DNA of 64,000 nucleotides from Acholeplasma sp. OttesenSCG-928-E16 (GTDB lineage Bacteria; Bacillota_I; Bacilli_A; Acholeplasmatales; Acholeplasmataceae), in the NCBI GenBank assembly GCA_030266845.1, contig JAJDIT010000001.1, positions 62,001-126,000 on the forward strand. The letters are read 5' to 3'. The position numbers were made by a program, and so were the translations under genes. The first letter of the stretch is position 1. Every line of letters starts with the position of its first letter. A model generated the notes under the pieces. That model was given only the letters and a program-made list of their open reading frames with translations. It had not been told where the DNA came from and searched no databases. Shown here piece by piece: positions 38,846 to 64,000 of the stretch.

Positions 38846-38931
38846 AAACCGAAAAAACTTGATAAAACATTAAATAAAAAAATTAATGGTCTATAATATA
38901 TTATATATGCCTAAAAAAGGAGATAAATAAT

Positions 38932-41538: not shown

Positions 41539-41547
41539 GTGGATATT

Positions 41548-45447: not shown

Positions 45448-46299
45448 ATGAGTGTAATGCTAAAAATGATTAAGAATAAAGAACTTCTTAGTGTCGCTGA
45501 AAAAGTTGTTTTAGATTACTTAATCGAAAATAAAGAAAATTTAAAAGATTTTAGTGTTAATAGAATTGCCGAAGCCGCTTATACCTCACCAGCTTCAGTG
45601 GTTAGGATGTGCAAAAAATTAGGGTATAAGGGATTTAAGGATTTTAAGATTGATTTTATTCTTTCAAACTCAAAAGTAGAAATTCCAGAAGAAAGAGAAT
45701 ACGCTGATGTCATTCTAACTAAAGATGAAAGATGTGGTATTGCCGCTATTGAAAATAACATAACAGCATTAGAAGAAACCTTAAAACTTTATGATGAGGA
45801 CGAATATTTAAAAGCCGCTGATATGGTTATGAGTTCAAGGAAAATCTTAATTTTTGGTAAAGGTTCATCATATTTAGCTTGTAAGGATTTAGAAATGAAG
45901 CTAAGAAGAATTAATAAATTTTGTATTGCGCAAGGTGAATCGCACGATCAATTAGTTGATGCAACGTTCATTAATGAGAAAGACGTGATCATCTTTGTAT
46001 CTAATTCTGGGAAAACAAGAGAAATAATCAATGCTGCTATGGTGGCAAAAGCAAACAAAACCAAAATTGTTAGTATCGTCAAATTTGGAACATCCCTTTT
46101 AGAAGAATTATCTGATGTTGTGTTATATACCACGGCACTAGAAGGAGAGTTTAGAAGTGCAGCGATGACTTCGAGGATTTCACAGATGTGTGTTGTTGAT
46201 GCATTGTTTGCTAAATGTGCTCAAAGAGATATTGAACGTTCTGTCAGAATGCTTGAGATGACGTATGAAACATTCAAAAAGATGAAGGATAAAATGTAA
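45448..46299 (+). CDS. RpiR-family regulator with SIS domain (MurR-like)
   Basis: The 283-residue regulator has an N-terminal RpiR helix-turn-helix (about 1-77; SVNRIAEAAYTSPASVVRMCKKLGYKGFKDFK) and a SIS sugar-phosphate-binding domain (about 125-255; FGKGSSYLACKDLEMKL, DVIIFVSNSGKTREI). MurR, GlcNAc and related regulators share this plan and sense MurNAc-6-P or GlcNAc-6-P. It stands first in the cluster of amino-sugar and peptidoglycan genes, and is closed by its own terminator. Confidence 0.88.
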   Translation: MSVMLKMIKNKELLSVAEKVVLDYLIENKENLKDFSVNRIAEAAYTSPASVVRMCKKLGYKGFKDFKIDFILSNSKVEIPEEREYADVILTKDERCGIAAIENNITALEETLKLYDEDEYLKAADMVMSSRKILIFGKGSSYLACKDLEMKLRRINKFCIAQGESHDQLVDATFINEKDVIIFVSNSGKTREIINAAMVAKANKTKIVSIVKFGTSLLEELSDVVLYTTALEGEFRSAAMTSRISQMCVVDALFAKCAQRDIERSVRMLEMTYETFKKMKDKM

Positions 46300-46413: not shown

Positions 46414-47556
46414 ATGAAAGCTGTCGGTTTGATGAGTGGAACCTCTTTAGATGGAATAGATTGTGTAATCGCTAACATTAAAGAGGAAAACGGAAAAATT
46501 AAAATTGAAGAAATAGCTAAGAAGACCTATCCTTATGAAAAAGAAGTTATTTTAAAAATTTTGGATGCGATGAGCTTGGATAAATCATCTTCAAAACTAA
46601 TTTGTAGTTTGAATTTTGAATTAGGATATGTTTTTGCAAATTGTATTCAAAAACTGTTAGATGAGGCAAACATAAAATCAAGCGAAATAGACTTTATTGC
46701 CTCACATGGTCATACTATTTATCATAATGTCGATGAATCAAACGGTTATTTCTTTTCTAGCCTACAAATTGGTGAAGGAGCAGTTATCGCTAATACATTA
46801 AACATTACAACCATTTCAAACTTTAGGTGTGCGGATATAGCAGTTTATGGTACCGGCGCACCACTAGTTCCTTATGCTGACTATGTTTTATTTCATGATG
46901 ATAATAAAACAAGGGCTATTCATAACATTGGGGGAATATCAAACCTTACTCTATTAGATAAAAATTTTAATATAGACGATGTAATTGGGTTTGATACCGG
47001 ACCTGGTAATATGATGATTAATTATGCTACCAAGAAATTTTATAATCTAGAATATGATAAAGATGGACTAATCGCCTCTAAAGGGAACGTAATAAATAAA
47101 ATGCTAGATGAACTCCTAGATAATGATTATTTTAAAATGGTGCCCCCTAAATCAACCGGAAGAGAAATGTTTGGTGATGAGTATACCGAGTATATCATCA
47201 ATAAATACAAGTTAGAAAAAAAAGAAGACATTATTAAGACACTTACTCTTTTTACTGCGAAAACGATTAGTAATGCCTATTTGGATTTTATTATCAGCGA
47301 CCACGATTTAAAAGAAATCATATTTTGTGGCGGTGGGGCTTATAATAAATATTTAATAAAACTTATTCAAAAAGAATTACCAAAAATAAAAATTAGCTTA
47401 TTAGATGATTATGGGTATGATAGTTCATTTAAAGAAGCAATTGCCTTTATAATTTTAGGATATCTTACGATTCACAAGAGGCCATCTAATTGCATGGCAA
47501 CTACTGGAGCTAAAAAAAGAGTAATTCAAGGTCAAATCAACGAAGTAATTAAGTGA
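46414..47556 (+). CDS. anmK: 1,6-anhydro-N-acetylmuramate kinase
   Basis: AnmK opens the anhydro ring of 1,6-anhydroMurNAc and phosphorylates it to MurNAc-6-P. The 380-residue kinase begins AVGLMSGTSLDGIDCVI and has IASHGHTIYH, GTGAPLVPYADYVLF, FDTGPGNMMINYA and IFCGGGAYNKYLI, all typical. Its substrate comes from lytic-transglycosylase products of peptidoglycan. The next step, MurQ etherase, is not in the window. Its TGA lies within the leader of the next kinase gene. Confidence 0.95.
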   Translation: MKAVGLMSGTSLDGIDCVIANIKEENGKIKIEEIAKKTYPYEKEVILKILDAMSLDKSSSKLICSLNFELGYVFANCIQKLLDEANIKSSEIDFIASHGHTIYHNVDESNGYFFSSLQIGEGAVIANTLNITTISNFRCADIAVYGTGAPLVPYADYVLFHDDNKTRAIHNIGGISNLTLLDKNFNIDDVIGFDTGPGNMMINYATKKFYNLEYDKDGLIASKGNVINKMLDELLDNDYFKMVPPKSTGREMFGDEYTEYIINKYKLEKKEDIIKTLTLFTAKTISNAYLDFIISDHDLKEIIFCGGGAYNKYLIKLIQKELPKIKISLLDDYGYDSSFKEAIAFIILGYLTIHKRPSNCMATTGAKKRVIQGQINEVIK

Positions 47557-47561
47557 GGGAT

Positions 47562-48557
47562 ATGAATAAATATATAGTCGCCTTTGATGGTGGTGGAACT
47601 AAAACTGATATAGCATTAATTGATATTAACGGAAATGTTTTGTATTTTGAAACAGGACCAGGATGCAATCATGCATCACACGATGGTCGTCATTTTCAAA
47701 ATACACTACAAACACTATATTTAAATGCGCTTTTAAATACTAACCTAAAAAAAGAAGACATTAGTTTTATTTATTTAGGATTAAGCGGAGCGGATTTAGA
47801 GTCTGATTTTATAAAACTTAATAAAGGATGTAAAGAAATATTTAAGGATACACCATTTAAAGTTGTTAATGATGCATGGATTATAATGAGAAGCGGCTTA
47901 AAACAACCATACGGAGCAGTAGCTATCTGTGGAACAGGAACTAATTCCGCCGCTATTAACAAAAACAAAGAAAGAGCAATTTTAAGATCTCTAAGTTATG
48001 TTCTTGGCACCTATGGTGGTGGATTAGATATCGCAAGAGAAGCTTTGCATCAAGCCTTTGGTTATGAAGAAGGAACATATCAATATACAATGCTTTATGA
48101 TGAAATACCAAAGATTTATGGGGTAAATGATTTAAAAGAGGTAGTGGATTTTTTCTATCCAATCAATAAAACGACCAAAAAAGAATTAGGGGCTATTACG
48201 GCATTAGTAAACGAATTAGCTTTAAAGGGAGACAAGGCATCAATTTTTGCCCTAAGTAAAGCGGGGACTGCAGTAGGGATGCAAACGGCAGGAGTAATTG
48301 AGAGGGTAAAAATTCAGGATGAAGCAATCAATGTAGTTGTTGGAGGAAGAGTGTTTTCCTCAAAATCTGATGCGTTTATAAATGCATTTAAAGAAGCGCT
48401 CTATAAAAGAGTACCAAAAGCAAAGATTGTTAAACCAATGTTTAAACCGGTAATTGGTGCTTATTTCTCAGCACTAGATGAATTAAATATTAATCAAACG
48501 GATGAAATTGAAAAAAATATATTAGAAAGTTGTGAAAAAAATGTCAAAGAAAGTTAA
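47562..48557 (+). CDS. BadF/BadG-type amino-sugar kinase (GlcNAc/MurNAc kinase)
   Basis: The 331-residue ASKHA kinase has the phosphate loop AFDGGGTKTDIALID, GLSGADLES, AICGTGTNSAAI and GGGLDIAREALHQAFG. Members include GlcNAc kinase and the Clostridium MurK, which phosphorylates both GlcNAc and MurNAc. The start is ATG 47562 after GAGGG; a GTG at 47553 is in frame. It sits directly behind anmK, so free amino sugars from wall breakdown are the expected substrates. Confidence 0.85.
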   Translation: MNKYIVAFDGGGTKTDIALIDINGNVLYFETGPGCNHASHDGRHFQNTLQTLYLNALLNTNLKKEDISFIYLGLSGADLESDFIKLNKGCKEIFKDTPFKVVNDAWIIMRSGLKQPYGAVAICGTGTNSAAINKNKERAILRSLSYVLGTYGGGLDIAREALHQAFGYEEGTYQYTMLYDEIPKIYGVNDLKEVVDFFYPINKTTKKELGAITALVNELALKGDKASIFALSKAGTAVGMQTAGVIERVKIQDEAINVVVGGRVFSSKSDAFINAFKEALYKRVPKAKIVKPMFKPVIGAYFSALDELNINQTDEIEKNILESCEKNVKES

Positions 48558-49857
48558 GATTGTTACAATCGGTGGTGGTTCTTCTTATACGCCAGAATTA
48601 ATTGAAGGTTTTATCAAAAGATACGATGAGTTACCAATAAAAGAACTTTGGTTGGTCGATATTGAGGAAGGTAAAGAAAAACTAGAGATAGTTGGTAATT
48701 TAGCTAAAAGAATGGTTGAACATGCTGGTTTACCAATGAAGGTTCATTTATCACTAGACCGAAGGAAAGCATTAAAGGATGCTGATTTTGTGACTACCCA
48801 ATTTAGAGTCGGGCAATTAGATGCTAGAATCCTTGATGAGAGAATTCCAGGAAAATATGGAATGTTAGGTCAAGAAACCAATGGTGCTGGTGGAGTGTTT
48901 AAAGCATTAAGAACGGTACCCGTTATTTTTGATATCATTAAAGATGTTGAGGAGCTATGCCCAAATGCCTGGATTATTAACTTTACTAACCCAGCCGGTG
49001 TGGTAACCGAAGCAGTTTTTAAATATACTAAATTTGAAAAGTTTATTGGAGTATGTAATGTTCCAATCAATCAACAACTTCATTTTTCAAGAGTTCTAGG
49101 CTGTAACAAAGACGATGTCTTGCCTTATTTTGCTGGTTTAAATCATATGTCATATGTTTTACATGTTTATCAAAAAGGACATAAAGATGATAAACTTCCA
49201 CTCATTATCGAAAAAATCAAAGAAAAACAGATGACGATGGCTAATATTGATGCCGGAGAGTGGAAATATGATTTCATTAAACAATTAGGAGTCTATCCTA
49301 ACCCATATCATAAATACTTTTATTTATATGATGTAATGTTTGACCATTATATGGAACAATTTAACTCTAATAGGACAAGAGCTGAGCTAGTAAAAGAGGT
49401 AGAAAAAAATCTATTTGAAAAGTATAAAGATACATCTCTTTATGAAAAACCAAAAGAATTAGAAAAAAGAGGTGGAGCATTATATAGCGATGTAGCCTGT
49501 AGTGTAATAAGCTCTATATATAATGATAGAGGTGATTACCACGGTGTAAATACGATGAATAAGGATTGCATAGTTGGTATTAATGAAAGATCGGCTGTTG
49601 AAGTTACTTGTAAGATAACAAAAGACGGACCAATTCCAATCCATATTGGGGAACTTCCAATCCAAATTAAAGGAACCGTTTTAGATTTAAAAGCCTATGA
49701 AGAGTTATTAGTTGAGGCGATTTATGAGAAAGACTTAAAAAAAGCGTTATTGGCTTTCCAAATTCACCCATTTACAACCAATGTTTATACTGCTGAAAAG
49801 GTATTTAATGAATTAGTAGAAGCGCATAGGAAATATTTAACATATTACTTTAAATAA
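48541..49857 (+). CDS. Glycoside hydrolase family 4 (6-phospho-beta-glucosidase/chitobiose type)
   Basis: GH4 enzymes cleave phosphorylated disaccharides by an NAD+ and Mn2+ dependent redox mechanism. The 438-residue protein begins VKIVTIGGGSSYTPELIEGF (Rossmann loop) and has QETNGAGGVFKALRTVPV, the metal-binding CNVPINQQLHF and HMSYVLHVY. Since its neighbours act on GlcNAc and MurNAc, the substrate may be a phosphorylated amino-sugar disaccharide, as for chitobiose-6-P hydrolase ChbF, but this is inference. The start could also be GTG 48532. It overlaps the kinase gene by 17 bases. Confidence 0.9.
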   Translation: MSKKVKIVTIGGGSSYTPELIEGFIKRYDELPIKELWLVDIEEGKEKLEIVGNLAKRMVEHAGLPMKVHLSLDRRKALKDADFVTTQFRVGQLDARILDERIPGKYGMLGQETNGAGGVFKALRTVPVIFDIIKDVEELCPNAWIINFTNPAGVVTEAVFKYTKFEKFIGVCNVPINQQLHFSRVLGCNKDDVLPYFAGLNHMSYVLHVYQKGHKDDKLPLIIEKIKEKQMTMANIDAGEWKYDFIKQLGVYPNPYHKYFYLYDVMFDHYMEQFNSNRTRAELVKEVEKNLFEKYKDTSLYEKPKELEKRGGALYSDVACSVISSIYNDRGDYHGVNTMNKDCIVGINERSAVEVTCKITKDGPIPIHIGELPIQIKGTVLDLKAYEELLVEAIYEKDLKKALLAFQIHPFTTNVYTAEKVFNELVEAHRKYLTYYFK

Positions 49858-49871
49858 TAAGGAGCGTAAAA

Positions 49872-51083
49872 ATGAAACTATTTTATTTTAAAGACAAAGA
49901 AAAACCAGTTTGTTATTATAATACGGATAAACAAGTAATCATACCTGATGAATATAAGGAAAAAGAATTAAGGGGTATCTGGGTATCTAATGTCTTAAAT
50001 ATAGACATGCCAACGACTAAAGATTTAAAGAAATACGAAGATAAATGCCACGAGATTATTAAGACATGTAAGGAATATAATATTAACACATTATTTTTTC
50101 AAGTCAGGACTTCTAATGATGCATTTTATCAATCAGATTTAAATCCTTATAGCAGATTTTTAACTGGAAAAGAAGGAGAAAAACCACCATATGACGTTTT
50201 TAAATGGTTTTTAGAATTAGCTAAAAGTGCAAATATCGAAGTCCATGCTTGGTGTAATCCTTACCGTGTCTCATGCGCGGAGATGACACTAGATGAATAT
50301 TTAGCTACATGTGATGATCTAAACTTTGCAAAGAAACACCCGGATGCATTATGCGAAGTAGCTAAGGGATCAAAATTTATCTTAAACCCAGCTAGAGAAG
50401 ATGTAAAACAATTTGTGGTAGATTCATTAGTAGAAATTGCATCGAAATATGATGTTGCAGGAGTTCATATTGATGATTATTTCTATCCATATGAGGGACT
50501 AAAAGAAGGGTTTGATGACTCTAAAGAATTTGCAAATAGAATCGATAAGAGTATGAGCCTTGATGAATTTAGAAGATTCCATATTACTGATGTTATAAAA
50601 AGGCTTCATAAAGGAATAAAACAAGTTAATAAAAATCAAAGATTTGGTGTTTCTCCATTTGGTATTTGGATGAATAAAGCAAATGATGAGAGAGGATCAA
50701 ATACCGATCCAAAATGTAGCCAAAGCTTTGATAATCAATATGCGGATACATACGCATGGGTAAAAGAAGAAATCATTGACTATATTGTCCCACAACTATA
50801 TTGGGATTTAGGTCATCCAATCGCCCCGTTTGCTGATTTATGTGACTGGTGGGCAAATTTATGTAAGGGTTCAAATGTCGATCTTTATATTGGGCACGGT
50901 GCATACCGTCTTGGTAGTGATGGACAGTACCAAGACAAAGATGAAGTAGTTAATCAGCTGAAATATGCAAATCAATATGAAACTGTGAAAGGAAATGTTT
51001 TCTTTACATACCACTCATTTATCGATAAAGGAAAAATAGAAGATGGTATGAAAGAATTGAAAAAAACATTAAAAGGGAAATAA
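49872..51083 (+). CDS. GHL10 (DigH/DUF187-type) glycosyl hydrolase, cytoplasmic
   Basis: The 403-residue protein is one GHL10 TIM-barrel domain: ELRGIWVSNVLNID, NINTLFFQVRTSNDAFYQSD, EVHAWCNPYRVS, FILNPARE and VAGVHIDDYFYPY near residue 200, then FGVSPFGIW and DYIVPQLYW. E. coli DigH of this family cleaves peptidoglycan strands lacking stem peptides. No signal peptide or membrane helix is seen, unlike the next two genes, so it should act on imported glycans. GGAGCG precedes the ATG. Confidence 0.85.
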   Translation: MKLFYFKDKEKPVCYYNTDKQVIIPDEYKEKELRGIWVSNVLNIDMPTTKDLKKYEDKCHEIIKTCKEYNINTLFFQVRTSNDAFYQSDLNPYSRFLTGKEGEKPPYDVFKWFLELAKSANIEVHAWCNPYRVSCAEMTLDEYLATCDDLNFAKKHPDALCEVAKGSKFILNPAREDVKQFVVDSLVEIASKYDVAGVHIDDYFYPYEGLKEGFDDSKEFANRIDKSMSLDEFRRFHITDVIKRLHKGIKQVNKNQRFGVSPFGIWMNKANDERGSNTDPKCSQSFDNQYADTYAWVKEEIIDYIVPQLYWDLGHPIAPFADLCDWWANLCKGSNVDLYIGHGAYRLGSDGQYQDKDEVVNQLKYANQYETVKGNVFFTYHSFIDKGKIEDGMKELKKTLKGK

Positions 51084-51088
51084 TAGTA

Positions 51089-54000
51089 ATGAAAATTTTT
51101 AACAAATTAATTATTGGAATAGTGTTGGTGATGTCAGTTTTTGCATTACTTTCAACAAACAACTATAACAATGATCTAGATATTTATGATGCGGCAACTA
51201 CAGATTTAGAAGAATTGGTTATTAATGGAGATACTGTAACTCATAGAGGAACATCTAATCCGGTAATGACACCTAAAAATTATACCGAAAAAAACACGGA
51301 AGTTAGAGCTGTTTGGTTAGCGTATGTTACTAGTGATGGACCAAAATTTTCGACAGAAGCAAAATATAAACAAGATATTACAGCGGTCCTTAATCGGATG
51401 GTTGCTTTAAAGCTAAACACGATTTTCTTTCAAGTTAGGCCGATGAACGATGCGATGTATGAGTCTGAATATGCACCATTTAGTCGCTTTTTATACGGTA
51501 CTAGCGTCACTAATGAAGGAAAAGATCCAGGAATGGATATCTTAAAATATGTTATTGATGAATGCCACAGCAGAGGAATTGAATTCCATGCATGGTTAAA
51601 TCCATATCGTGTTTCTACAGGAACAGGAACTAAGGAAGCTCAATTAGCGACCCTTCATGATGATAACTTTGCAAAACAAAATCCAAATTTAGTTATTCAG
51701 GGTAGTGATGAAAGATTAATATTAAATCCAGGCGAGCCGGCAGTTCGTGATTACTTATTTAATGTGGTTGATGAGCTAATGCAAAAATATGATATTGATG
51801 GAATCCATTTTGATGATTATTTTTATAGCTATAGTGGTACCACTGATACATTAGACCAATCTGCTTTTGATAATTATAATCCTAATGGTTTAAGTAGAGC
51901 TGATTGGCGTAGAAATAATGTTAATTTACTTGTTGAAGGAGTCTCAAATTGTATTAAAAATCATAATGCAAACAATAATACTACTATTAGATTTGGGATA
52001 TCTCCATTTGGAATTTGGAAAAATGGTAATGGAACAATTACAGGCGGATCAAATACGGCTGGAAACAATAGCTATGCTGCTCAGTTTGCAGATTCAAAAA
52101 AATGGGTAGAAGAAGGATGGCTAGATTATATTTGTCCACAAACATATTGGGGCTTTAAATTAGCCGCTGCACCATTTGCCGACTTAGTAGATTGGTGGGC
52201 TTTAGTATGCGAAACATATGGAGTCGATTTAATTTTAGGATTAGGTTTGTACCGAGTTACTGAAACTAATGATGGTTGGAGCAAAAACCCTAATGAGTTG
52301 ATTGACCAAATTAACTATGCAAGTAAGCATGATGCAGTAGCTGGATTCTCTATTTTTAGCTACAACTATCTAAATAGTTCTAATACAACTATTAAATCTC
52401 AACTTAACACTTTAACCGCTAATTATTGGACTAAAATGCCAACAAAGATTTGGGATGTCAAGACAACTAAATTATCAAATCCGACAATAAATATTAAAGA
52501 TAACGTCATCACTTGGGATGAGATTGAAAACGCTGATGGCTATATTGTAACTTTAAACGGTACTAAAAATGCTAAGCAAACAGGAACATCATTTACCATG
52601 CCATCTCCTACTAATGGAGTAGAATATACAATATCAGTAGAAGCTGTTTCTAATGATGTTAGTCTATTTGAAAACAGCAGTACAGAAGAAACATTCACTT
52701 ATGGAAAAAAACTAAATACACCTTCTAATATATCTTTTAGTAACGGTACTATCTCATGGGATTCAGTAAACAATGCAGATGGTTATACTCTATATATTGG
52801 TGGAGAAACCGAAACAAAATTAGATTCTTTTGAAGCAACTAAAAATACAACAACATATAGTTCGGATAATTTATATTTTAGCCTTTCTGATAGTTCTATG
52901 CTTTGGAATAGAAACGATCTTTTAGTGAATGTGAATGATGACCATGGAAGAAGGGACCAAATCGTTTTAGTATTTGATGATCCTAATAAGGTTACTTACG
53001 ATTCATCGGCCTTATCGGCAACAGTTTTAGTTCATGTTGGAGCTGATGGAACTATTTTAGAAAGAGCATATGGTTCCAACTTTGAGACCCTTTTAAATAA
53101 TCTAAAAAATTCTGGTTTAAAAAAAGGCGAAGTATTAATGACTTCTTATGGTGGAGCTTCTGTTTTTGGTGGATCATCAGTTAGTACTTGGAATCCGAAT
53201 GAAAACCCATTAGTTGTAGGAGATAAAATATCATTAGATTGGTCAAATGGATTTGATTCTACTACTAATTCATATGCATTTTCTAATACGACTCCGGGTG
53301 TTTATGAAATATCGATTATGGCATACTCAAATAGCAGCAGTTATGAAAACAGCACCGTTTCAAGTAAATATGATTTAATTATTTCTAAAGCGTTAGCTGC
53401 TCCAGTGATAACATTAAATAATAATATAGTCTCATGGAGTAGAGTTGATAATGCTAGTGGTTATGTTGTTACTGTAAATGGAGTGGCTAGCGATCCACAG
53501 ACTAGAAGTAGTTATACCATCAACGCAGCAACTGCTGGCAATTATGTGGTGACAGTAAAAGCAGTTAGCAATGATGCTATGTATAGTGATAGTGTTTCTT
53601 CTAATTCAGTTACATATACCCATACAATAACTTCTGATACGCCAAGTATTGAAGTAACCGGAACTGGCTCAGATGGTTTTTATCAAGAGGCAACTATTAC
53701 GCTTAGTACAACAACCTCTTATGATATCTTATATAAAATAAATAGCGGGTCATGGCAAACTTATTCAAGTTCTTCTAAAATAACATTAGATGCTGATGGT
53801 GAATATACTATTTACTATAAATTAGATTTCGCTGGAGCTACTGAAAATAGTAAATTCATTACCATTGATAATGTTGCTCCTGAAGAACCAGCTATCATAG
53901 TTAATGGACAGAAAAATGATGCTGGAAAATACGTAAAAAATGTTTCATTCTCATTTGATGAAATTACTGATGGAACAATCTATTACAAAATTGACCTTAG

Positions 54001-55768
54001 TGGCAACAGTTATGTAGCAACTTGGACAGAGTTCAAAGCAGAAGTTTCCCTAAAGGCAAACGGTAGATATGTTATTTATTACCGAGCTGTTGACCAAGCC
54101 GGAAACGCATCTAAACAAAAGACAATCACAATAGATGTTGTTATTGAAATTGCTGAAGATAACGAATATGTTATTAGAAATGGCAAAGAAGTAACCTACT
54201 ATGAAACATCAACTCCAATTAAGTTACCTACTTACTCAGAAAGAGAAGCTGAAGTTAGGGCTTCTTGGTTATCAACTGTTTGGAATATTGACGTTCCAAT
54301 GGTTACAACAGAAGAAGAATATAAAGCAAAAATCATTACAATGTTAGATACTTTATTATCATTAAACATGAATACTATATTCTTCCAAGTAAGATCAATG
54401 AATGACGCCTATTATAAGTCTGATTATGCTCCTTATTCAAGGTTCTTAGCTGGTGCTCAAGGAGTTGATCCTGGATTTGATGCCTTAGGATTTGTTATTG
54501 AAGAAACCCATAAAAGAGGTATGGAATTCCATGCATGGATGAATCCATATCGGGTGTCTTCTGATACAGCTCCAAAAGATACTCAATTAGCAGCCCTAGC
54601 TGATGGCAATTTTGCAAAAATGAATCCATCATTAGTGCTTGCAGATCGAAGTGGGCAATTAATATTAAACCCAGGTGAACCAAGAGTTCAAAACTATCTT
54701 AAAAATGTCGTATCCGAAATATTGGGTTTATATGATATTGATGGAATCCATTTTGATGATTATTTTTATAGTTATGGAGGTACTGATAACCAACAAGACC
54801 AAGATGCTTTTAATAGATATGGCAATGGGTTATCAAGGGAAGATTGGCGTCGCAAAAATGTTGATGATCTTATTAAATTAATTTCTGAGACTATTAATGA
54901 ATACGAAGAACAAAAAGACAAAAATGTTAAATTTGGAATTAGTCCATTTGCGATATGGAGATCAAAACAAGAAGGTGTGCCTGAGGGATCTAACACTCCT
55001 GTAACTAATCTACAAAGTTATAAAGATCAATTCGCTGATTCTAAAAAATGGGTAGACGAAAAATGGCTAGACTATATTTGTCCTCAAATCTATGGTGGAT
55101 TTGACTATAAACCAATGCAATATGCTGATATGGTAGACTGGTGGGCAAACGTATGTAAGAATGCAGGTGTTGACCTAATGATTGGTCAAGGGATGCATCG
55201 ATCAGTAGATTCGTCTGTTCCAGATTGGAAAGATCAAAGTGAATTAGTAGAACAAATTCGTTATGCAAATCAATATGATTGTGTCATAGGTTATTCGATA
55301 TTCTCATATAAGAATTTACTTGGAACAACAACGGCAACAAAAGCAGCATTAACAAGGCTAGTAAATAGTTATTGGACAAAAAGAGCAACTTTCCCTTGGG
55401 GATCTGATGTTACTATCGACCAATATGAAATTACCCTAAATGTTGATCAAACAAAAGGCTCTGTATCAAGCTTAAGTAAAGACAAATTTGCTTACGGTGA
55501 TACTGTTAGTTTAACAGCAACACCAAAAGATAAGTATAAATTTGTTGAATGGCGTATTAATGGAATATCAGCTGGTAGTGAAGAAACAATAAGCTTTAAA
55601 GTTACTAACGATATCAGCGTAGAAGCAATATTTGATTTAGTTTCTAATAATGGAAATACACCAAATGATAAAACTCTAATAATTGTAATCTCGATAGCTT
55701 CAGGCGTCGTTTTAGTAGGTGGGTTAGTTACTGTTATTTTGGTTAGGAAAAAGAAAAAAGTAAAATAA
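51089..55768 (+). CDS. Exported, membrane-anchored protein with two GHL10 glycosidase domains
   Basis: This 1559-residue protein has a signal/anchor (residues 1-25), GHL10 domain 1 (about 66-445, motif GIHFDDYFYSY from residue 238), a set of fibronectin-III-like modules (starting near ITWDEIENADGYIV, ISWDSVNNADGYTL and VSWSRVDNASGYVV), two Ig-like modules (about 850-1030), GHL10 domain 2 (about 1047-1430, motif from 1219), an InlB B-repeat-like module (about 1445-1525) and a C-terminal helix followed by RKKKKVK. Both GHL10 domains keep the HFDDYF and NPGEP motifs. It is expected to be held at the outer cell face, trimming denuded peptidoglycan glycans. Confidence 0.85.
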   Translation: MKIFNKLIIGIVLVMSVFALLSTNNYNNDLDIYDAATTDLEELVINGDTVTHRGTSNPVMTPKNYTEKNTEVRAVWLAYVTSDGPKFSTEAKYKQDITAVLNRMVALKLNTIFFQVRPMNDAMYESEYAPFSRFLYGTSVTNEGKDPGMDILKYVIDECHSRGIEFHAWLNPYRVSTGTGTKEAQLATLHDDNFAKQNPNLVIQGSDERLILNPGEPAVRDYLFNVVDELMQKYDIDGIHFDDYFYSYSGTTDTLDQSAFDNYNPNGLSRADWRRNNVNLLVEGVSNCIKNHNANNNTTIRFGISPFGIWKNGNGTITGGSNTAGNNSYAAQFADSKKWVEEGWLDYICPQTYWGFKLAAAPFADLVDWWALVCETYGVDLILGLGLYRVTETNDGWSKNPNELIDQINYASKHDAVAGFSIFSYNYLNSSNTTIKSQLNTLTANYWTKMPTKIWDVKTTKLSNPTINIKDNVITWDEIENADGYIVTLNGTKNAKQTGTSFTMPSPTNGVEYTISVEAVSNDVSLFENSSTEETFTYGKKLNTPSNISFSNGTISWDSVNNADGYTLYIGGETETKLDSFEATKNTTTYSSDNLYFSLSDSSMLWNRNDLLVNVNDDHGRRDQIVLVFDDPNKVTYDSSALSATVLVHVGADGTILERAYGSNFETLLNNLKNSGLKKGEVLMTSYGGASVFGGSSVSTWNPNENPLVVGDKISLDWSNGFDSTTNSYAFSNTTPGVYEISIMAYSNSSSYENSTVSSKYDLIISKALAAPVITLNNNIVSWSRVDNASGYVVTVNGVASDPQTRSSYTINAATAGNYVVTVKAVSNDAMYSDSVSSNSVTYTHTITSDTPSIEVTGTGSDGFYQEATITLSTTTSYDILYKINSGSWQTYSSSSKITLDADGEYTIYYKLDFAGATENSKFITIDNVAPEEPAIIVNGQKNDAGKYVKNVSFSFDEITDGTIYYKIDLSGNSYVATWTEFKAEVSLKANGRYVIYYRAVDQAGNASKQKTITIDVVIEIAEDNEYVIRNGKEVTYYETSTPIKLPTYSEREAEVRASWLSTVWNIDVPMVTTEEEYKAKIITMLDTLLSLNMNTIFFQVRSMNDAYYKSDYAPYSRFLAGAQGVDPGFDALGFVIEETHKRGMEFHAWMNPYRVSSDTAPKDTQLAALADGNFAKMNPSLVLADRSGQLILNPGEPRVQNYLKNVVSEILGLYDIDGIHFDDYFYSYGGTDNQQDQDAFNRYGNGLSREDWRRKNVDDLIKLISETINEYEEQKDKNVKFGISPFAIWRSKQEGVPEGSNTPVTNLQSYKDQFADSKKWVDEKWLDYICPQIYGGFDYKPMQYADMVDWWANVCKNAGVDLMIGQGMHRSVDSSVPDWKDQSELVEQIRYANQYDCVIGYSIFSYKNLLGTTTATKAALTRLVNSYWTKRATFPWGSDVTIDQYEITLNVDQTKGSVSSLSKDKFAYGDTVSLTATPKDKYKFVEWRINGISAGSEETISFKVTNDISVEAIFDLVSNNGNTPNDKTLIIVISIASGVVLVGGLVTVILVRKKKKVK

Positions 55769-55774
55769 TCTAGT

Positions 55775-55796
55775 GAGGGCCAATCCTTTGGCCCTC
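55775..55796 (+). terminator. GC-rich hairpin between GHL10 genes, no T-tract
   Basis: GAGGGCCAA (55775-55783) pairs perfectly with TTGGCCCTC (55788-55796). The absence of a following T run makes full termination doubtful; it may stabilise or partially attenuate the message. Confidence 0.6.
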
Positions 55797-55841
55797 CTAA
55801 GATTGATTAATTAATGGTTAGCGCAAACAAGGAGGCAAAAA

Positions 55842-57854
55842 GTGAAAATGAAATCGATACATAAAAACATTATAATGATTCTTTTATTGTTTTTATCAGT
55901 GTTCCCCTTTTTTGGTAGTTATCACGCCGATAACGAGATTTCAGTTCCAAAGATCATTGTAACTGGCGATGTAAATGAAAACGGAAAATACACATCAAAA
56001 GTTGTAGTTACATTTGAAAAAGTAGATGGAATAGATATCTATTATGATCGTTTTACAAACGGAAATTTTACTCATGGATATGTCAAGTTTAATAATTCAA
56101 TCAACCTAACTACAAATGGAAGACATTTAATAAGTTATTATGGACAAGACTCTCTTTTAAATCAATCAACTAAAGGATCTATTACTATTGATATCATCTT
56201 AATTTCTACTGAGGATAATGAGTATGTAGAAAGAAATGGGAGCTATGTCAATTATTATAAAACGAGTACCCCAGTTAAACTACCAACCTCCTATAGTGAA
56301 AAAAGCAATGAGCTAAGGGCAGTTTGGGTTTCAACAGTTTCAAATATTGATATCGTGAAACATTCCTCAGAGGAACAATATAAAGGTGTTATTAATACCA
56401 TCTTAGATAATGTAAAAAATAATAATTTAAACGCAATATTCTTTCAAGTAAGGCCGATGAATGATGCTTTTTATGAGTCAGACTATGCACCATTTAGTCG
56501 ATATTTAACTGGTGCAGAGGGTGTTTCGCCAGGTTGGGATGTTTTAGAATACATAATAGATGAAGCTCACCGAAGAGGAATAGAATTTCATGCATGGCTA
56601 AATCCTTACCGAGTCTCATCCACAACTGGTGTTCCTAAGGAAACCCAGCTATCTTCTTTAGCTAATAATAATTTTGCGAGAATGAATCCTAGTTTAGTAA
56701 TGGAAGATAATGATGGAAAACTAATATTAAACCCTGGTGAACCAGAGGTTGTCGAATATATCAGTAATGTAGTAGATGAGCTTATTACAAAATATAAGGT
56801 TGATGGAATCCATTTTGATGATTATTTTTATAGTTATTCTGGGACTCCAACCCAAGAAGATCAAAGCGCATTTACAAATAATAATCCAAGTAAGTTATCA
56901 AGAGCTGACTGGAGACGTAAAAACATCGATGATCTAATCAAAGGATTATCAGAACTAATCGATGCTCATAATCAAGAAAAAAATGTTCATATAAAGTTTG
57001 GGATTAGTCCATTTGGAGTTTGGAGTTCGAAAAATTCAAGTTCTGGGATGCCTGATGGAGCAAATGTCGGAAATACAATGCAAAGCTATAGTGCTCAATA
57101 TGCGGATTCTAAAAAATGGGTTGAAGAGGGATGGTTAGATTATATTTGCCCACAATTATACTGGGGCTTTTCCCATTCTTCTGCGCCATTTGCTGACCTA
57201 GTGAAATGGTGGGCAGAACTATGCGAAAGAAGCAATGTAGATTTAATTATTGGTCAAGGATTTTATCGTTCAGTGGAAACACAAAGTGATTGGACTAATG
57301 CAAACGAGCTATTAGAACAAATAAGATATGCAAGCACATATGAATCAGTAAAAGGATTTTCATTATTTTCATATAAAACGATAATCAATCAATCTCAAAA
57401 TGTTTTACAAGCAGTAAAAAGATTAAATGATTATTACTGGACCGAACAACCAATGTTTCCTTGGCCATCAGATATTAGTGATCTTAGATATACTGTTACT
57501 GGGACTTCAAATATAGATCAAGGAATGATTGGTGGTCTTGATAAAGATGCTTACCTTTATGGAGAAGAAATAACGATAGAAGCTATTCCACAAACCGGCT
57601 ACAAATTTAAAAATTGGGTTATTGAAGGTTCAACAGTAGATAATTTAAAATCAAGAACAATTACTTTTAAAGTTACTGGCAATACAACTATCGAAGCTAT
57701 ATTTGAAGTAGATAAACCATTTGATTTTACCTTAGTTATTATCGGCTCGAGCATTATAGGAGGAGCAGCATTAGCAGCCTTATTCACGTTTATTGTTAGA
57801 AAAAGAAAAGGGGAAAGAAGCGATGATCCAGAAAATCCAAGCAATAGCGGCTGA
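55842..57854 (+). CDS. Exported, membrane-anchored GHL10 glycosidase
   Basis: The 670-residue protein has an N-terminal signal (about 8-28), an Ig-like module (about 35-125), one GHL10 domain (about 150-530; NAIFFQVRPMNDAFYESD, FHAWLNPYRVS, GIHFDDYFYSY from residue 322, FGISPFGVW, YICPQLYWGF), an InlB-like repeat (about 545-622) and a C-terminal helix with a basic and then acidic tail. It looks like the second half of the preceding protein, duplicated. Translation is taken from GTG 55842, six bases after GGAGG; ATG 55848 is the alternative. Confidence 0.86.
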   Translation: MKMKSIHKNIIMILLLFLSVFPFFGSYHADNEISVPKIIVTGDVNENGKYTSKVVVTFEKVDGIDIYYDRFTNGNFTHGYVKFNNSINLTTNGRHLISYYGQDSLLNQSTKGSITIDIILISTEDNEYVERNGSYVNYYKTSTPVKLPTSYSEKSNELRAVWVSTVSNIDIVKHSSEEQYKGVINTILDNVKNNNLNAIFFQVRPMNDAFYESDYAPFSRYLTGAEGVSPGWDVLEYIIDEAHRRGIEFHAWLNPYRVSSTTGVPKETQLSSLANNNFARMNPSLVMEDNDGKLILNPGEPEVVEYISNVVDELITKYKVDGIHFDDYFYSYSGTPTQEDQSAFTNNNPSKLSRADWRRKNIDDLIKGLSELIDAHNQEKNVHIKFGISPFGVWSSKNSSSGMPDGANVGNTMQSYSAQYADSKKWVEEGWLDYICPQLYWGFSHSSAPFADLVKWWAELCERSNVDLIIGQGFYRSVETQSDWTNANELLEQIRYASTYESVKGFSLFSYKTIINQSQNVLQAVKRLNDYYWTEQPMFPWPSDISDLRYTVTGTSNIDQGMIGGLDKDAYLYGEEITIEAIPQTGYKFKNWVIEGSTVDNLKSRTITFKVTGNTTIEAIFEVDKPFDFTLVIIGSSIIGGAALAALFTFIVRKRKGERSDDPENPSNSG

Positions 57855-58860
57855 GGCGGTTAATAAAAAAGATATTCCTGGTGCTTCATTTGCATTAGTA
57901 AAAAATGGTATAATTGAAACAGGATACGTTGGATACAAACAAATATATAAAAGAAAAATAAAAAATAGAGGCAATGAAGTTTATGATTGTGCCTCACTCA
58001 CTAAGGTTATTTCAACAACCACGATTATCATGAAATTGATAGAGGATAAAAAATTACGTTTAGATGACTTTGTTAGTGATTTTCTACCAAGATTTAAGCA
58101 TAAAAACATTACTATATACCATCTTTTAACCCATTCTTCTGGATTACCGGCAGATGTAAAAAGATCAAATACCTTAAAATCAAAAGAAGAGGTTATGGAT
58201 TATATATATGATGTCTCATTAATTAATGATTTAGAGACTAGTTGTGTTTATTCGGATATCGGATTTATTTTATTAGGAGAAATTATTGAAAAAATAACTA
58301 ATAAAAAAATAAGTGAAAATGCATTTGAAATGATTTTCAAACCGCTAAACATGATAAGCAGTTCATATTATCCGGATAAAAGATTTGCTGCCCCAACCGA
58401 ACTAAGAGAAGATGATGTTTATAATGGTCTTCTAAGGGGAATGGTTCATGATGAGAAGAGTTTCGCAATGAAAGGCGAAGCAGGACACGCAGGTTTATTT
58501 TCTAACGTATATGATATTTCCTTATTCATCAAGGCAATCTTAGAAGATAAATTTGTTTTAAAAAAAGAAACAGTGGATGAACTATTTAAGCACCGACCAT
58601 TAAAATCTAACAATGAAACAACAAGGGCTCTTGGATGGGATAAACCACAAAAAGGCGGACAAGTTGGTGATAATTTTGATTTTATAAACACGATTTGTCA
58701 TACAGGGTTTACTGGGTGTAATATGTTTATAGATAGAAAAAGAAAAATAGGGTTTGTTATGTTAAGCAATGCGGTACACTATAAAAGAGCAATGAACCAT
58801 ATATTTTCTTATCGATATAGGATTGGAAGCGAAATTATTAAAAAAGGAGTTGAGGGATAA
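57823..58860 (+). CDS. Serine beta-lactamase-family hydrolase (AmiE/YbbE-like muramyl amidase)
   Basis: The 345-residue enzyme has the active-site set of the beta-lactamase/PBP fold: Ser58-Leu-Thr-Lys61 (CASLTKVIS), YSDIGFILLGEIIE where Tyr-Ser-Asp replaces YxN, and HTGFTGC. In Bacillus the homologue AmiE (YbbE) removes the peptide from MurNAc during muropeptide recovery, which fits the neighbours. No signal peptide is seen, so it may work in the cytosol. The start ATG 57823 follows AAGGGGA and overlaps the previous gene by 32 bases. Confidence 0.85.
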   Translation: MIQKIQAIAAEAVNKKDIPGASFALVKNGIIETGYVGYKQIYKRKIKNRGNEVYDCASLTKVISTTTIIMKLIEDKKLRLDDFVSDFLPRFKHKNITIYHLLTHSSGLPADVKRSNTLKSKEEVMDYIYDVSLINDLETSCVYSDIGFILLGEIIEKITNKKISENAFEMIFKPLNMISSSYYPDKRFAAPTELREDDVYNGLLRGMVHDEKSFAMKGEAGHAGLFSNVYDISLFIKAILEDKFVLKKETVDELFKHRPLKSNNETTRALGWDKPQKGGQVGDNFDFINTICHTGFTGCNMFIDRKRKIGFVMLSNAVHYKRAMNHIFSYRYRIGSEIIKKGVEG

Positions 58861-58862
58861 AA

Positions 58863-61800
58863 ATGAAAAGAAAAGTTTTTTTAGCAATCGCGGTCTTAGT
58901 AACATCACTTTTAGTAGGATGTGGATCTAAAATCACTATTGAATGTAGTGAAAGAAGCGCGACAATTGGATCTTTCGAGACATATCAGATAGAGGCAACT
59001 ACTAATGATGATAAGGGACTAAACTATGAATCTGAAAACAAAGATGTAGCTACAGTCAATGACTCAGGATTAGTAAGTGCTGTTGCTGTTGGACAAGCGA
59101 AGATTAAAGTATCTTCAAAAAGTGATCCAAAAGTGTCAATAACTATTGATATCAAAGTAGAAAAGAAAGACTATGTCAATGTTACAACAACAGAGATAGA
59201 TCTAGACTTAGGTGATGAACACACTTTAGTTTATGATGCATCTGGAGCTGTTAATTTTACATCGAGCGACACTAATATCGCTGCTGTAAATACAAGCGGC
59301 ATTATTGTTTCGATTGCAGCTGGAACAGTTGATATTACCATTTCTTTAAAAACCGATGCTAGCGTATCAAAAGTTGTAAAAGTTAATGTCGTTCCACTAG
59401 CTTCAAAAATTGTTATTTCTGGTCCTACAGTGATAACTGTTGGTGGGACCGGGGAATACAAGATTACGGCAACCCCTGCTGGTTCTAGTAAGAATGTGGA
59501 ATGGGAAGTAAGCGATGAATCGATAGCTACTATCAATGAATCTGGTGTTTTATCAGGAGTTACTGCCGGAACGGTCACTGTTAGTGCGACTCATAAAAAG
59601 GACTCAACAGTTAAAAATTCTTTTGAAGTAGAAGTAAAAAGTATATTATTCGTTTCTGCTTCTAAGGGGGCTGGCGATACATTGACCATCAATGGTATTA
59701 CCTTAGAACACGGAAAGGGATTATACTCAAGTTTAAAAGAAGCATCCGAAAAAGCGATTGATGGAACGATTATTTATCTTTTTGATGGAGAATTCAGTGA
59801 CGCAATAAACATTAATAAAGATTTTGTTTCATTATTAGGTGTTGGTAATGGTGCTGTAATCAAAAATACTGTTACAATTAAAGGAAAAAATATATCAATT
59901 GAAGGAGTTAGATTCGAAGGTGCTGCAAGAATTGTAAGTACTGAGGCAGTTGAAAATCTTCAATTAGTAAATAACTCATTTAATAATATTACTGGAACAT
60001 CTGATTTAATTTCTCTTGCTGGAGTTAATGGGTTAGTTATTAAAGGTAATAATATAACCTTACCTTCAATCAATGGAATAGTGCTTTCAAACATTAGTGC
60101 AAATGAAGCATTAATAAGAAATAATACAATTACTGGTGGACAAACAGCAATAAAGGCAGCCTTTTTAGGTTCTGCTACAAGTACCACACAGTTGCATATT
60201 GTTAGAAATGTTATTTCAAACGCTAATCTACCACTTGATGTTAATACACTAAATTCAAGTTCATCTTACGCAAGATATAACCAAATAAGTGGTTTTGGAA
60301 GCAAGGCTGTTGTTGCAAACAGCGAAAATGCAATGGATTTTTCATTAAACTATTGGGGAAGTAAGACTGTTGATATTTCTAAGTTTGATAATGTTGCAGA
60401 ACACTTCTTAGCAGGAACATATGAATCTGCAGACGACATTCTTTTAGAAAAATATGAAGACCCAAGAGTTCCAGCTATGATGATTATTAATAACCCAATT
60501 GAGGATTTAAAAATTGGTGATAGCTACCAAATTGAAGTTTCATACTTACCTTATGATTATCAACATAGGAGTTCAAACGTCAGATTTGTAACTACTGATG
60601 CATCAGTTGCTTATTTTGGATTAACCGGTGTTTTAAACATTGTTAAATCAGGGTTAGTTCATCTAGGAGTTAGATCAACTGTCTTTACAAACTTAGAAAA
60701 TATGATGATAGTTTCTGTATTAACTGATCCAGGAGTAGAAATGAAACCTTCTAATATGGATGCTGGATTAATTGTTGGTGAGGCTTTATCGTTTGAAACT
60801 AAGGTTTTCCCTTATACAATCGAAAACAACCCAATAAGATTTAGTTCTTCAGATGCAAGTGTTGCAACTATCGACGCTACTGGAAAAGTTACATCACTAA
60901 AAGCGGGAACAGTAACTTTCAAAGCAGAAGTTGATGTTAAAGATGAACAAGGGGTCCTTTTGGAAACGGTTGAAACAACATATACATCTTCATTCTATGC
61001 AGAATTGGATGGAAACAATATCTTAGACTATCTTACTATGTATCACAATACCTATGCGCAAACAAAAAATGTTTTCGTTAATGGATTTAATGGTACATAT
61101 ACATATTATGGAATTCTTTCCGCTTCAATGTTCTTATACGATGAAGTTATTATTCATCAAGCGATTATCACTAATCCAGCAATTAGACCAGGATTGATGA
61201 CGGCATTACCTTCTAATGTCACTCCATTTAATGGGGATAACATTTATTGGGTAGTGGTACATGATACTGCTAATGCAGGTTCAGGAGCTGCCGGGCATGC
61301 GCAATGGTTATCAGGTGGTGGAGATTCAACATCATGGCACTACACAGTTGATGATAAAGAAACTTATCAACATTTACCAGAAAATGAAAGAGCATATCAT
61401 GCAGGAGATGGTTCATCTAGCCCAGGCAATAATGGTGGTTATTTAGGTGGTGGAAATAGAAATGGTATTGGAATTGAAACATCAGTCCGTAAGGGAGATG
61501 ACTTATTTAAGGTTTGGCAAAATACAGCTAAATTAGTTGCTGACATTTTAGTTAGAAACAATTTACCATTAAATCATGCGAAGTATCATAATGATTTTAG
61601 TGGTAAAAACTGTCCGGCTGCAATGCGTGATGCGAAGATGATCCCATATTTTGAAATATTAAAGGAAGTTGAATACAACATAAGAAGTAAATATCCTGAT
61701 GCAGTGATCACTTTAACTTCAAACAACACAGATTATCTTGCAAACTCAGGTAGAATAATTAAGCTTCCAGAAAAGGCAATGACAGTGACATACACTGTTT

Positions 61801-61868
61801 CAGTTACCAATAATAGTCAAACAGAGACTAGAGACTTTGCAATTTATTTGCCTGGAACAATAGCCTAA
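58863..61868 (+). CDS. Lipoprotein N-acetylmuramoyl-L-alanine amidase with Big2 and beta-helix modules
   Basis: The 1001-residue protein has a lipoprotein signal ending in LLVGC (Cys about 20), three Big2-like Ig modules (about 25-265, each with a pattern such as VATVNDSGLVSAVAVGQAKI), a beta-helix-like region (about 270-500), more Big2 modules (about 540-710, SSDASVATIDATGKVTSLKA), and a C-terminal Amidase_2 domain. Expected zinc ligands His800 (VVHDTA), His909 and Cys917 (HNDFSGKNC) and Glu872 (GIETS) are all there, with the PlyL-like H-H-C set. It should cleave stem peptides from wall glycan outside the cell, providing denuded strands for the GHL10 enzymes. It follows the serine hydrolase by two bases. 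Confidence 0.9.
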   Translation: MKRKVFLAIAVLVTSLLVGCGSKITIECSERSATIGSFETYQIEATTNDDKGLNYESENKDVATVNDSGLVSAVAVGQAKIKVSSKSDPKVSITIDIKVEKKDYVNVTTTEIDLDLGDEHTLVYDASGAVNFTSSDTNIAAVNTSGIIVSIAAGTVDITISLKTDASVSKVVKVNVVPLASKIVISGPTVITVGGTGEYKITATPAGSSKNVEWEVSDESIATINESGVLSGVTAGTVTVSATHKKDSTVKNSFEVEVKSILFVSASKGAGDTLTINGITLEHGKGLYSSLKEASEKAIDGTIIYLFDGEFSDAININKDFVSLLGVGNGAVIKNTVTIKGKNISIEGVRFEGAARIVSTEAVENLQLVNNSFNNITGTSDLISLAGVNGLVIKGNNITLPSINGIVLSNISANEALIRNNTITGGQTAIKAAFLGSATSTTQLHIVRNVISNANLPLDVNTLNSSSSYARYNQISGFGSKAVVANSENAMDFSLNYWGSKTVDISKFDNVAEHFLAGTYESADDILLEKYEDPRVPAMMIINNPIEDLKIGDSYQIEVSYLPYDYQHRSSNVRFVTTDASVAYFGLTGVLNIVKSGLVHLGVRSTVFTNLENMMIVSVLTDPGVEMKPSNMDAGLIVGEALSFETKVFPYTIENNPIRFSSSDASVATIDATGKVTSLKAGTVTFKAEVDVKDEQGVLLETVETTYTSSFYAELDGNNILDYLTMYHNTYAQTKNVFVNGFNGTYTYYGILSASMFLYDEVIIHQAIITNPAIRPGLMTALPSNVTPFNGDNIYWVVVHDTANAGSGAAGHAQWLSGGGDSTSWHYTVDDKETYQHLPENERAYHAGDGSSSPGNNGGYLGGGNRNGIGIETSVRKGDDLFKVWQNTAKLVADILVRNNLPLNHAKYHNDFSGKNCPAAMRDAKMIPYFEILKEVEYNIRSKYPDAVITLTSNNTDYLANSGRIIKLPEKAMTVTYTVSVTNNSQTETRDFAIYLPGTIA

Positions 61869-61988: not shown

Positions 61989-64000
61989 ATGAAGAAAAAA
62001 ATAGTTTCATTATTATTGATGGCTTTATTAGCGGTAGCCTTTATTGGTCCGAACGCTCAATATCAAGCTGCAGAAGGTGATTTAAAAGATTTTTATCCAT
62101 ATGAAAACGCAGCGTGCGTTGGATTAGCTGAAGAAGGTGCTCCAGCATGTAATGCTAGTGGGCTAACTGCTTCAAATTGGGTATTAGAGTATGATGGAGG
62201 ACGATACCATTTCCTTGCTGGTTTACATTCTCGTATGTTAAGCCAATATGCAGAAGCAATCAACAGTAAAAACGGTTTAGTGACTGCTACTGAAATCGGT
62301 GGATCTTCTGGATTTAATGCGTTTGCAACTCTTTATCACAATGACTCAGGTGTTGACGTAATTGTCCAAATTGATGATGACCGTACTAAAATGACTGCTG
62401 TAAGACATGCTGTTTATGTTTACTTTGATGAAAATGGCGTTTTACAAATGGCTGAATATAACGTTCAAACTTTCTACTTAACTAATGAAGGAACAGAAGC
62501 TGCTCCAGATTATAGATTCTCAACTGCAGAAGAAATCGCTGCTATTCCTACACCAGCTGAAGGAGAAAGCGCTGTATTACCTGATGGAATGGTTAATTCA
62601 ACTATTAGAATTATCAGAAGTGATAATGAAAGAGGTTATAAAGTAGAACCAATTACTTTCACTAAATGGACTTATACTGGTTATAATCCTGAAGATGCAA
62701 CTACAAAAGCATCAATCTTATTCCCTGATAAGACTGCTGCTGATGTAAATAACATTGAAATCCCTGCTGGATGGAATGTTATATCATTTGGTACTCGTGA
62801 TAGAGCTTATGGTTATGCTCCAGAACAATCATCAATTCCTTGGGTTAATAACTTAGCTTATACAGTAGGTTCTGACAAGGTTGCTTGGATTGATTATCTA
62901 GCAAGACCAGCTTCATTTAGCTTATTATCAGCAATCGATGTTGATGCTGAAGCTAAAGGTATTCAAGGTATTATTGATTATAGAGGTTCATTCTCATTAG
63001 TTGAACCAACTGCAAGTTGGACATATAAAGTTGTTGATCCAGACACTGGATTTGTATCTACAAAGACTGACAAATTAGACTATAAAGTTGTTGTATCTGA
63101 TGGAACAAATAGCGATACACTAACCTTTGCTTATGACTCAGCTGCTGATGCATATGTTAAGACTGGTGAAGTAACTATAGTTGATACTATGGAATTCAAC
63201 AAGGCTTATACTGTTACTTATTCTGCTGATCTACCAGAATCTTATGAAAGACCAGCTTCAAAAGAAGTAGTAGTTAATTACATTGTTGGTACTCTTCCTC
63301 CAAGATTCCACGGAGTAGAAAACAAGATTTATTCAGAATACGATTTTAATATTGATGTATTAGATGGTATTACTGCTGATGATGGCGAAGTTAAAGCAGG
63401 TGTTGCTGATTTAACTAGTGATATCGTAGTTACTTACCCAGATGGATTTAACCCATATGCTCCAAAACCAGGAGTATGGATTATTGAATTATCAATTACT
63501 AAGAAAGTTGAATATCCTGCAACATTAACTGATATGAAGATTAAAGATGTATTAGTTACTGATTGGGATCCTGCTGACTATAATACAATTTACACTAGTT
63601 CATTTGGTACTAAGAAACTATTAGTTATCGATAATAACGAAGATTGGCAAGCTCAACTTGCATCAGGTTTCCACTTTGCATGGTCTGGTAATAGATTCCA
63701 TATCCTAGTAATAGGAACTGATGGAAAAGTTAAGACTGGTGTTGCAAGAAGTTCTTGGATTACAGCTGACAAACCTACTGGTGGATGGGCTGCATCATCT
63801 ACATTAACATCGAATTTGGCTGCAATTACTCTTGCGGCTGGCGAATTTATCGTAGTTGGTAGAGACCTAAATACAGACGGTGCTCCAAATTATGCAGTTT
63901 ATGAAGAATGTTCAATTGCTGGCTTAAACTATGGTGACAAGGTTGAATTAATCGGTCTTCCTTATGAAGCTAAATATGTTACTACAGAAACATCATTCAA
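61989..64000 (+). CDS. Large secreted surface protein, unknown function (3' end outside window)
   Basis: The frame from ATG 61989 is open to the window end (670 codons). It begins with a classical signal peptide (MKKKIVSLLLMALLAVAFIG, cleavage likely near AQYQAAEG). The rest is rich in Asp, Ala, Thr and Tyr with alternating beta-strand patterns and few cysteines (two in the first 50 residues and one in YEECS near residue 640), without a family I recognise. A segment near residue 215 (TFTKWTYTGYNPEDATTKA) and the part from about 540 (LVIDNNEDWQAQLASGFHF) look like beta-sandwich domains. Codon use favours GCT, ACT and GAA as in gapA, and the promoter is consensus, so abundance is expected. A surface-layer or adhesin role is only a guess. 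Confidence 0.7.
   Translation, partial: MKKKIVSLLLMALLAVAFIGPNAQYQAAEGDLKDFYPYENAACVGLAEEGAPACNASGLTASNWVLEYDGGRYHFLAGLHSRMLSQYAEAINSKNGLVTATEIGGSSGFNAFATLYHNDSGVDVIVQIDDDRTKMTAVRHAVYVYFDENGVLQMAEYNVQTFYLTNEGTEAAPDYRFSTAEEIAAIPTPAEGESAVLPDGMVNSTIRIIRSDNERGYKVEPITFTKWTYTGYNPEDATTKASILFPDKTAADVNNIEIPAGWNVISFGTRDRAYGYAPEQSSIPWVNNLAYTVGSDKVAWIDYLARPASFSLLSAIDVDAEAKGIQGIIDYRGSFSLVEPTASWTYKVVDPDTGFVSTKTDKLDYKVVVSDGTNSDTLTFAYDSAADAYVKTGEVTIVDTMEFNKAYTVTYSADLPESYERPASKEVVVNYIVGTLPPRFHGVENKIYSEYDFNIDVLDGITADDGEVKAGVADLTSDIVVTYPDGFNPYAPKPGVWIIELSITKKVEYPATLTDMKIKDVLVTDWDPADYNTIYTSSFGTKKLLVIDNNEDWQAQLASGFHFAWSGNRFHILVIGTDGKVKTGVARSSWITADKPTGGWAASSTLTSNLAAITLAAGEFIVVGRDLNTDGAPNYAVYEECSIAGLNYGDKVELIGLPYEAKYVTTETSF

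Follow-up and report, generated by a model that had tools for sequence, protein, structure and literature searches.

Within the 64,000-nucleotide stretch of the Acholeplasma sp. OttesenSCG-928-E16 genome analysed here (the window), three co-directional open reading frames on the + strand, at positions 49872-51083 (403 aa; the cytoplasmic gene), 51089-55768 (1559 aa; gene A) and 55842-57854 (670 aa; gene B), contain one, two and one GHL10 domains (PF02638), with Pfam E values of 5e-60, 3e-117 and 7e-62, respectively. The four domains score 199-212 bits against a curated cut-off of 27.9 for PF02638, and a profile search of the whole assembly (1.13 Mb in 34 contigs, 86% complete) found exactly these four. 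As the sole GHL10 domains of the genome reside in adjacent genes, their arrangement is far from chance. Chance or assembly duplication as the origin of the four domains was ruled out by their identity of 38-57% and their conserved order. From the GH4 gene onward the intergenic gaps are 14, 5 and 73 nt, and the gene 3' of B overlaps B; these short gaps and the overlap indicate that, by layout, the GHL10 genes belong to an operon.

A preliminary description of this DNA had recorded four GHL10 domains in three neighbouring genes, one lacking a signal peptide and the others encoding anchored forms, and this picture holds, all four domains being intact. Maximal N-terminal hydrophobicity (Kyte-Doolittle, 15 residues) is 0.55 for the cytoplasmic protein, compared with 3.11 for A and 2.91 for B, and the C termini of both A and B consist of a hydrophobic helix followed by a basic tail. 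On these features A and B should be membrane-anchored and outward-facing. Gene A encodes a signal peptide, the GHL10 domain A_N (51299-52270, + strand; contig C1:113299-114270), Ig/FnIII-like modules, the GHL10 domain A_C (54251-55210, + strand; C1:116251-117210), an InlB-like repeat and the predicted C-terminal membrane anchor, while B comprises a signal peptide, an Ig-like module, its GHL10 domain, an InlB-like repeat and a predicted anchor of the same type. The shared InlB-like repeat and terminal helix are indeed present in both proteins, the divergent repeat lying at aa 1450-1517 of A and aa 555-623 of B (Pfam). The Ig and FnIII modules ascribed to A fared less well; there is support for one Ig-like/OmpL47 module (aa 963-1017), but no FnIII module reached the Pfam cut-off, and these are visible only as three copies of a W(D/S)xxxNAxGY motif at aa 472, 553 and 779.

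The nearest solved protein to the cytoplasmic copy is Cwp19 (PDB 5OQ2; phmmer E 8e-84), and structure prediction bore this out: the AlphaFold model (pLDDT 84) finds its best PDB match in 5oq2 (E 2e-38, TM 0.83 by query length and 0.92), the next different protein being at E 4e-12. A pocket of 13 residues has been proposed for Cwp19 (PMC5765458), and the positions compared were W36, Q77, W127, R132, D195, D196, Y197, S250, Q295, Y297, G328, F367 and S368 (Cwp19 numbering). A_N, A_C and B retain the full set of 13. The cytoplasmic copy retains 12 and carries the conservative change S368T; threonine at this position is the rule among cytoplasmic orthologues. A Cwp19-type fold with the proposed pocket residues is thus seen by sequence in the four domains and by model in the cytoplasmic copy. 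DigH (YddW) is taken here to be a further GHL10/DUF187 protein. Cwp19 is a peptidoglycan lytic transglycosylase that makes 1,6-anhydroMurNAc ends (PMC6016235), and Escherichia coli DigH degrades the peptide-free glycan made by amidases (PMC12288456).

The GHL10 genes sit in an island of 40-50 kb which, judged by its gene families, appears to encode a complete path leading from the cell wall into central metabolism; this neighbourhood, not seen in the preliminary description, gives the GHL10 genes a likely function and outweighs the history of the domains in importance. The window genes named below all lie on the + strand. Upstream are a MurR/RpiR-type regulator (45448-46299; HTH_6 and SIS domains by Pfam), the anhydro-N-acetylmuramic acid kinase AnmK (46414-47556; NF007142 490.5 against a cut-off of 435 bits, PF03702 E 4e-98), a NagK-like sugar kinase of the BadF/BcrA type (47553-48557; PF01869 E 4e-18, with a weak NagK match below cut-off) and a GH4 6-phospho-beta-glycosidase (48532-49857; PF02056/PF11975, 1s6y E 9e-163). 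Downstream, a beta-lactamase-fold serine hydrolase that lacks a signal peptide (57823-58860; PF00144 E 2e-47) probably starts at ATG 57823 rather than at TTG 57793, on the basis of start codon and ribosome-binding site; that it is a muropeptide amidase or peptidase is proposed as a guess. It is followed by a surface lipoprotein amidase (58863-61868) with the lipobox LLVGC, Big_2 modules and an XlyA-like Amidase_2 domain (PF01510 E 2e-18; XlyA 3hmb E 2.5e-23), and by the N-terminal 670 of 832 residues of a secreted C-anchored protein (61989-63998), orthologues of which stand beside the amidase in many relatives. The full gene for the 832-aa protein is L009:1989-4487, and a Pfam search of the protein gave no match. 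Further upstream lie genes for ETF-beta, ETF-alpha and an LctD-like FAD subunit (40747-44140; PF01012/PF00766, LctD 7qh2_C E 2e-173), which together form an LctBCD set in one cluster and are linked to the island in many relatives, and for a NagA-like deacetylase and a NagB-like deaminase (37724-39654; PF01979, PF01182), whose specific NagA and NagB functions are suggested by family membership. Outside the window the same contig carries ABC transporter parts, NamZ (PF07075/PF20732 E 6e-80 and 9e-38), NagZ (GH3 E 4e-67), a BadF-type, MurK-like kinase that matches the MurNAc/GlcNAc kinase 8zo3 (E 1.3e-19), a GH18 enzyme and, next to these enzymes about 18 kb past the window, MurQ (C1:144165-145031; TIGR00274 362 against a cut-off of 302 bits). 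By profile and sequence matches, the contig therefore holds the constituents of MurNAc catabolism, namely a MurQ etherase, a MurNAc/anhydroMurNAc kinase and exo-acting NamZ and NagZ. Between two of the island's transporter sets there is also a DUF5696 protein (L009:13344-15965; E 4e-145).

In a survey of 120 genomes of Acholeplasmatales, GHL10 and MurQ scored over cut-off in 33 and 31 genomes, respectively, and AnmK was present in 31; 31 genomes have both GHL10 and AnmK, and 30 have both AnmK and MurQ. PBP transpeptidases were found in 22 and MraY in 20 of the 120, both confined to two families, and only one of the 31 AnmK genomes (G004) has either (the contrast between AnmK and PBP gives p 0.013, a value that ignores, and is confounded by, kinship). 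More than 20 relatives share the core gene order, which is conserved across Acholeplasmatales without PBPs and MraY; Acholeplasma laidlawii PG-8A and A. brassicae 0502 appear to carry the island core. The genome of strain OttesenSCG-928-E16 itself yielded neither PF00905 (PBP) nor TIGR00445 (MraY) and, as the assembly is 86% complete, the absence of wall genes rests on the relatives as well. A working wall in this host was rejected, given that PBP and MraY are missing from the 86%-complete genome. Its Mur_ligase_M matches were likewise rejected as wall synthesis since, on our reading of the sequences, one is FolC-like and two are standalone MurE-like proteins outside any wall cluster. The MurE-like ligases (L011:1272-2666 on contig C10 and L012:4289-5698 on C30; 464 and 469 aa), whose presence weighs against the reading preferred below, each lie 3' of an uncharacterized protein. 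Outside the order, families f16 and f24 have the cytoplasmic gene, the two-domain gene and AnmK, with no PBPs in the four genomes tested, and family f12 has GHL10 together with PBPs, AnmK being present in two of three genomes tested. Since two f12 genomes and the walled relative G004 contain GHL10 with AnmK, walled bacteria can have the pair too: its distribution extends beyond wall loss, and the full island is characteristic of wall-less groups. PMC10868615 counts peptidoglycan-deficient families among the Acholeplasmatales and proposes that intermediate lineages scavenge muropeptides; its passages on these subjects do not describe the island.

Taken with the enzyme families, this gene content makes it probable that the island feeds wall-less bacteria on foreign peptidoglycan, and that the GHL10 genes supply its glycan-cutting part. 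The computation itself shows the gene content and order, their conservation, the enzyme families, the wall-gene status, the cell compartments (from signal sequences) and the intact pockets, with function assigned by homology throughout. From these we infer the individual reactions in Acholeplasma sp. OttesenSCG-928-E16, the origin of the peptidoglycan from other bacteria and the sequence of the steps, which would be as follows. The surface lipoprotein amidase would strip stem peptides off foreign peptidoglycan, and the membrane-anchored A and B would then cut the glycan by lytic transglycosylation into fragments ending in 1,6-anhydroMurNAc. These fragments would be imported by the ABC transporters and trimmed inside the cell to monosaccharides by NamZ, NagZ, GH4 and the cytoplasmic GHL10, which may thus act on imported oligomers. 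AnmK and the MurK-like kinase would generate MurNAc-6-phosphate, from which MurQ would yield GlcNAc-6-phosphate and D-lactate. NagA and NagB would pass the former to glycolysis, and the ETF-linked lactate dehydrogenase would recover the latter. MurQ is known to release D-lactate from MurNAc-6-phosphate, and the presence of lactate dehydrogenase genes within this block, a linkage kept in many relatives, would therefore make sense. GH4 chemistry requires a free C3 hydroxyl on the released sugar and, because O3 of MurNAc is blocked, the likely target of the GH4 enzyme is a phosphorylated GlcNAc end; the substrates assigned to this enzyme and to the serine hydrolase are guesses.

The proposed route has counterparts in characterized systems. 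MurNAc recovery in Bacillus subtilis employs MurQ, MurR, NamZ, NagZ and AmiE, and the island likewise has MurQ, a MurR-like regulator, NamZ, NagZ and a beta-lactamase-fold hydrolase. In B. subtilis, however, NamZ, NagZ and the hydrolase AmiE are secreted, whereas here all three lack signal peptides, AnmK and GHL10 are added, transport is of the ABC type and the host is wall-less. AnmK, which acts on anhydroMurNAc and shares the operon with the GHL10 genes, is missing from the B. subtilis control. The Gram-negative recycling of anhydroMurNAc by lytic transglycosylases, AnmK, MurQ and NagZ resembles the proposed route in that anhydroMurNAc is made, phosphorylated by AnmK and split by MurQ, but that pathway serves the cell's own wall, and here apparently none is made. 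Cwp19 of Clostridioides difficile has the same domain, fold and proposed pocket residues; in contrast with the proteins described here, of which the secreted forms appear membrane-anchored and one form is cytoplasmic in an apparently wall-less host, it is an autolysin held on its own wall through CWB2 domains. DigH, likened here by description, works on peptide-free glycan from amidases, and a similar pairing with an amidase is possible in the island, although DigH has a division role in a walled cell. The LctD match and two adjoining ETF genes recall the electron-bifurcating LctBCD of Acetobacterium woodii; here the predicted complex is tied to a peptidoglycan island, with MurQ the likely source of D-lactate.

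It could be argued that the enzymes are mainly a weapon, anchored lysins that break open the live walled cells they touch, the uptake of sugars being a side benefit. The amidase and the GHL10 proteins are apparently displayed at the surface through lipid or transmembrane anchors, Ig/InlB-like modules of the adhesion type are present, and the target is absent from the host; lysins of this kind would do no harm to a wall-less cell that makes them. The operon, however, runs on into dedicated sugar catabolism under a MurR-like regulator, as nutrition predicts, and DigH works on peptide-free glycan and not on the intact wall (PMC12288456); we therefore consider a primarily offensive role unlikely. 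The related proposal that several wall-less families attack living walled bacteria with self-harmless surface lysins and eat the wall sugars released is given a small but real chance.

A different substrate is less probable again. GHL10 proteins differ in their loops, and the family has been suggested to act on a range of substrates, maybe other glycans among them (PMC5765458); a paper on a Deinococcus GHL10 protein is reportedly about starch, and GH18 and GH4 enzymes occur in the same island; the MurNAc genes could then be incidental neighbours of a system for some other GlcNAc-containing glycan, such as an exopolysaccharide, a chitin-like polymer or a host glycan. Against this stands the near-perfect co-occurrence of GHL10, AnmK and MurQ in the 120 genomes, which, together with the amidase and NamZ, points to a MurNAc-containing glycan, and we regard the alternative as quite improbable. 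As AnmK, MurQ, NagZ and amidases are recycling enzymes of walled bacteria, and as walled G004 has AnmK, MurQ and GHL10, the island might also be viewed as a remnant of own-wall recycling retained after wall loss. Yet the copies read are open frames conserved in wall-less families, which also possess the surface anchors and two-domain enzymes, and no PBP or MraY is left for wall making; a host recycling its own wall would make peptidoglycan with PBP, MraY and Mur ligases, a set not found in the 86%-complete genome. Such an origin is thus very improbable, and foreign peptidoglycan as a nutrient remains the preferred explanation.

Acholeplasmas are generally portrayed as saprophytes or as parasites whose metabolism is reduced. 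If the nutritional proposal is true, a wall-eating route would explain the food of free-living acholeplasmas and the retention of AnmK and MurQ in a wall-less lineage, and GHL10, a common domain of which few members have been tested, would gain a nutritional role and a cytoplasmic form. If instead the lysin reading were true, wall loss would have become a predatory or scavenging niche. A cultured mollicute appears to carry the island, making the idea directly testable. No description of the island was found in the open-licence literature on acholeplasmas, Izemoplasma, mollicutes and MurNAc/AnmK metabolism, a silence that is weak evidence of novelty.

The history of the four domains was followed in a tree of 99 GHL10 domains and a reduced, careful tree of 59. 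Cytoplasmic and secreted domains separate in both, and the cytoplasmic clade, with orthologues at about 30 loci, has support of 100/100 in the 59-domain tree. A_C groups with B as its sister (bootstrap 99, SH-aLRT 92), and aa 36-656 of B align in a single piece of about 620 residues with aa 934-1556 of A at 50% identity; B thus duplicates the C-terminal half of A, as the mirrored architecture had suggested. The segment EDNEYV, cited as part of that mirrored half, is present there but belongs to a short stretch that also stands ahead of the other GHL10 domains, including that of the cytoplasmic gene. It had also been proposed that the whole array grew by tandem duplication, with the four domains as closest relatives. 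Growth of this kind is evident in B, but the AU test rejects a clade of the four window domains (p-AU 0.0033) and the cytoplasmic domain, one of the four, falls elsewhere; an origin of all four from one local tandem array, in spite of the A_C/B sisterhood, therefore has next to no probability, and the cytoplasmic gene represents a distinct, old lineage. A_N joins A_C and B at 91/74, and the alternative of grouping it with N-type domains is not rejected (p-AU 0.565), such that both a local copy and an old N-type domain are allowed. The commonest arrangement across families is a cytoplasmic gene plus one two-domain fusion gene, which indicates that only B is clearly a local addition. Elsewhere, a 1979-aa frame in G008 (L044, contig C18) encodes a fusion of three GHL10 domains; the first two are sisters (100/99) and reflect a duplication that occurred independently. 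The second GHL10 domain of L056 in G053 is very diverged, with several pocket residues lost (WKWRDHEAQYSLD versus WQWRDDYSQYGFS), and is possibly inactive.
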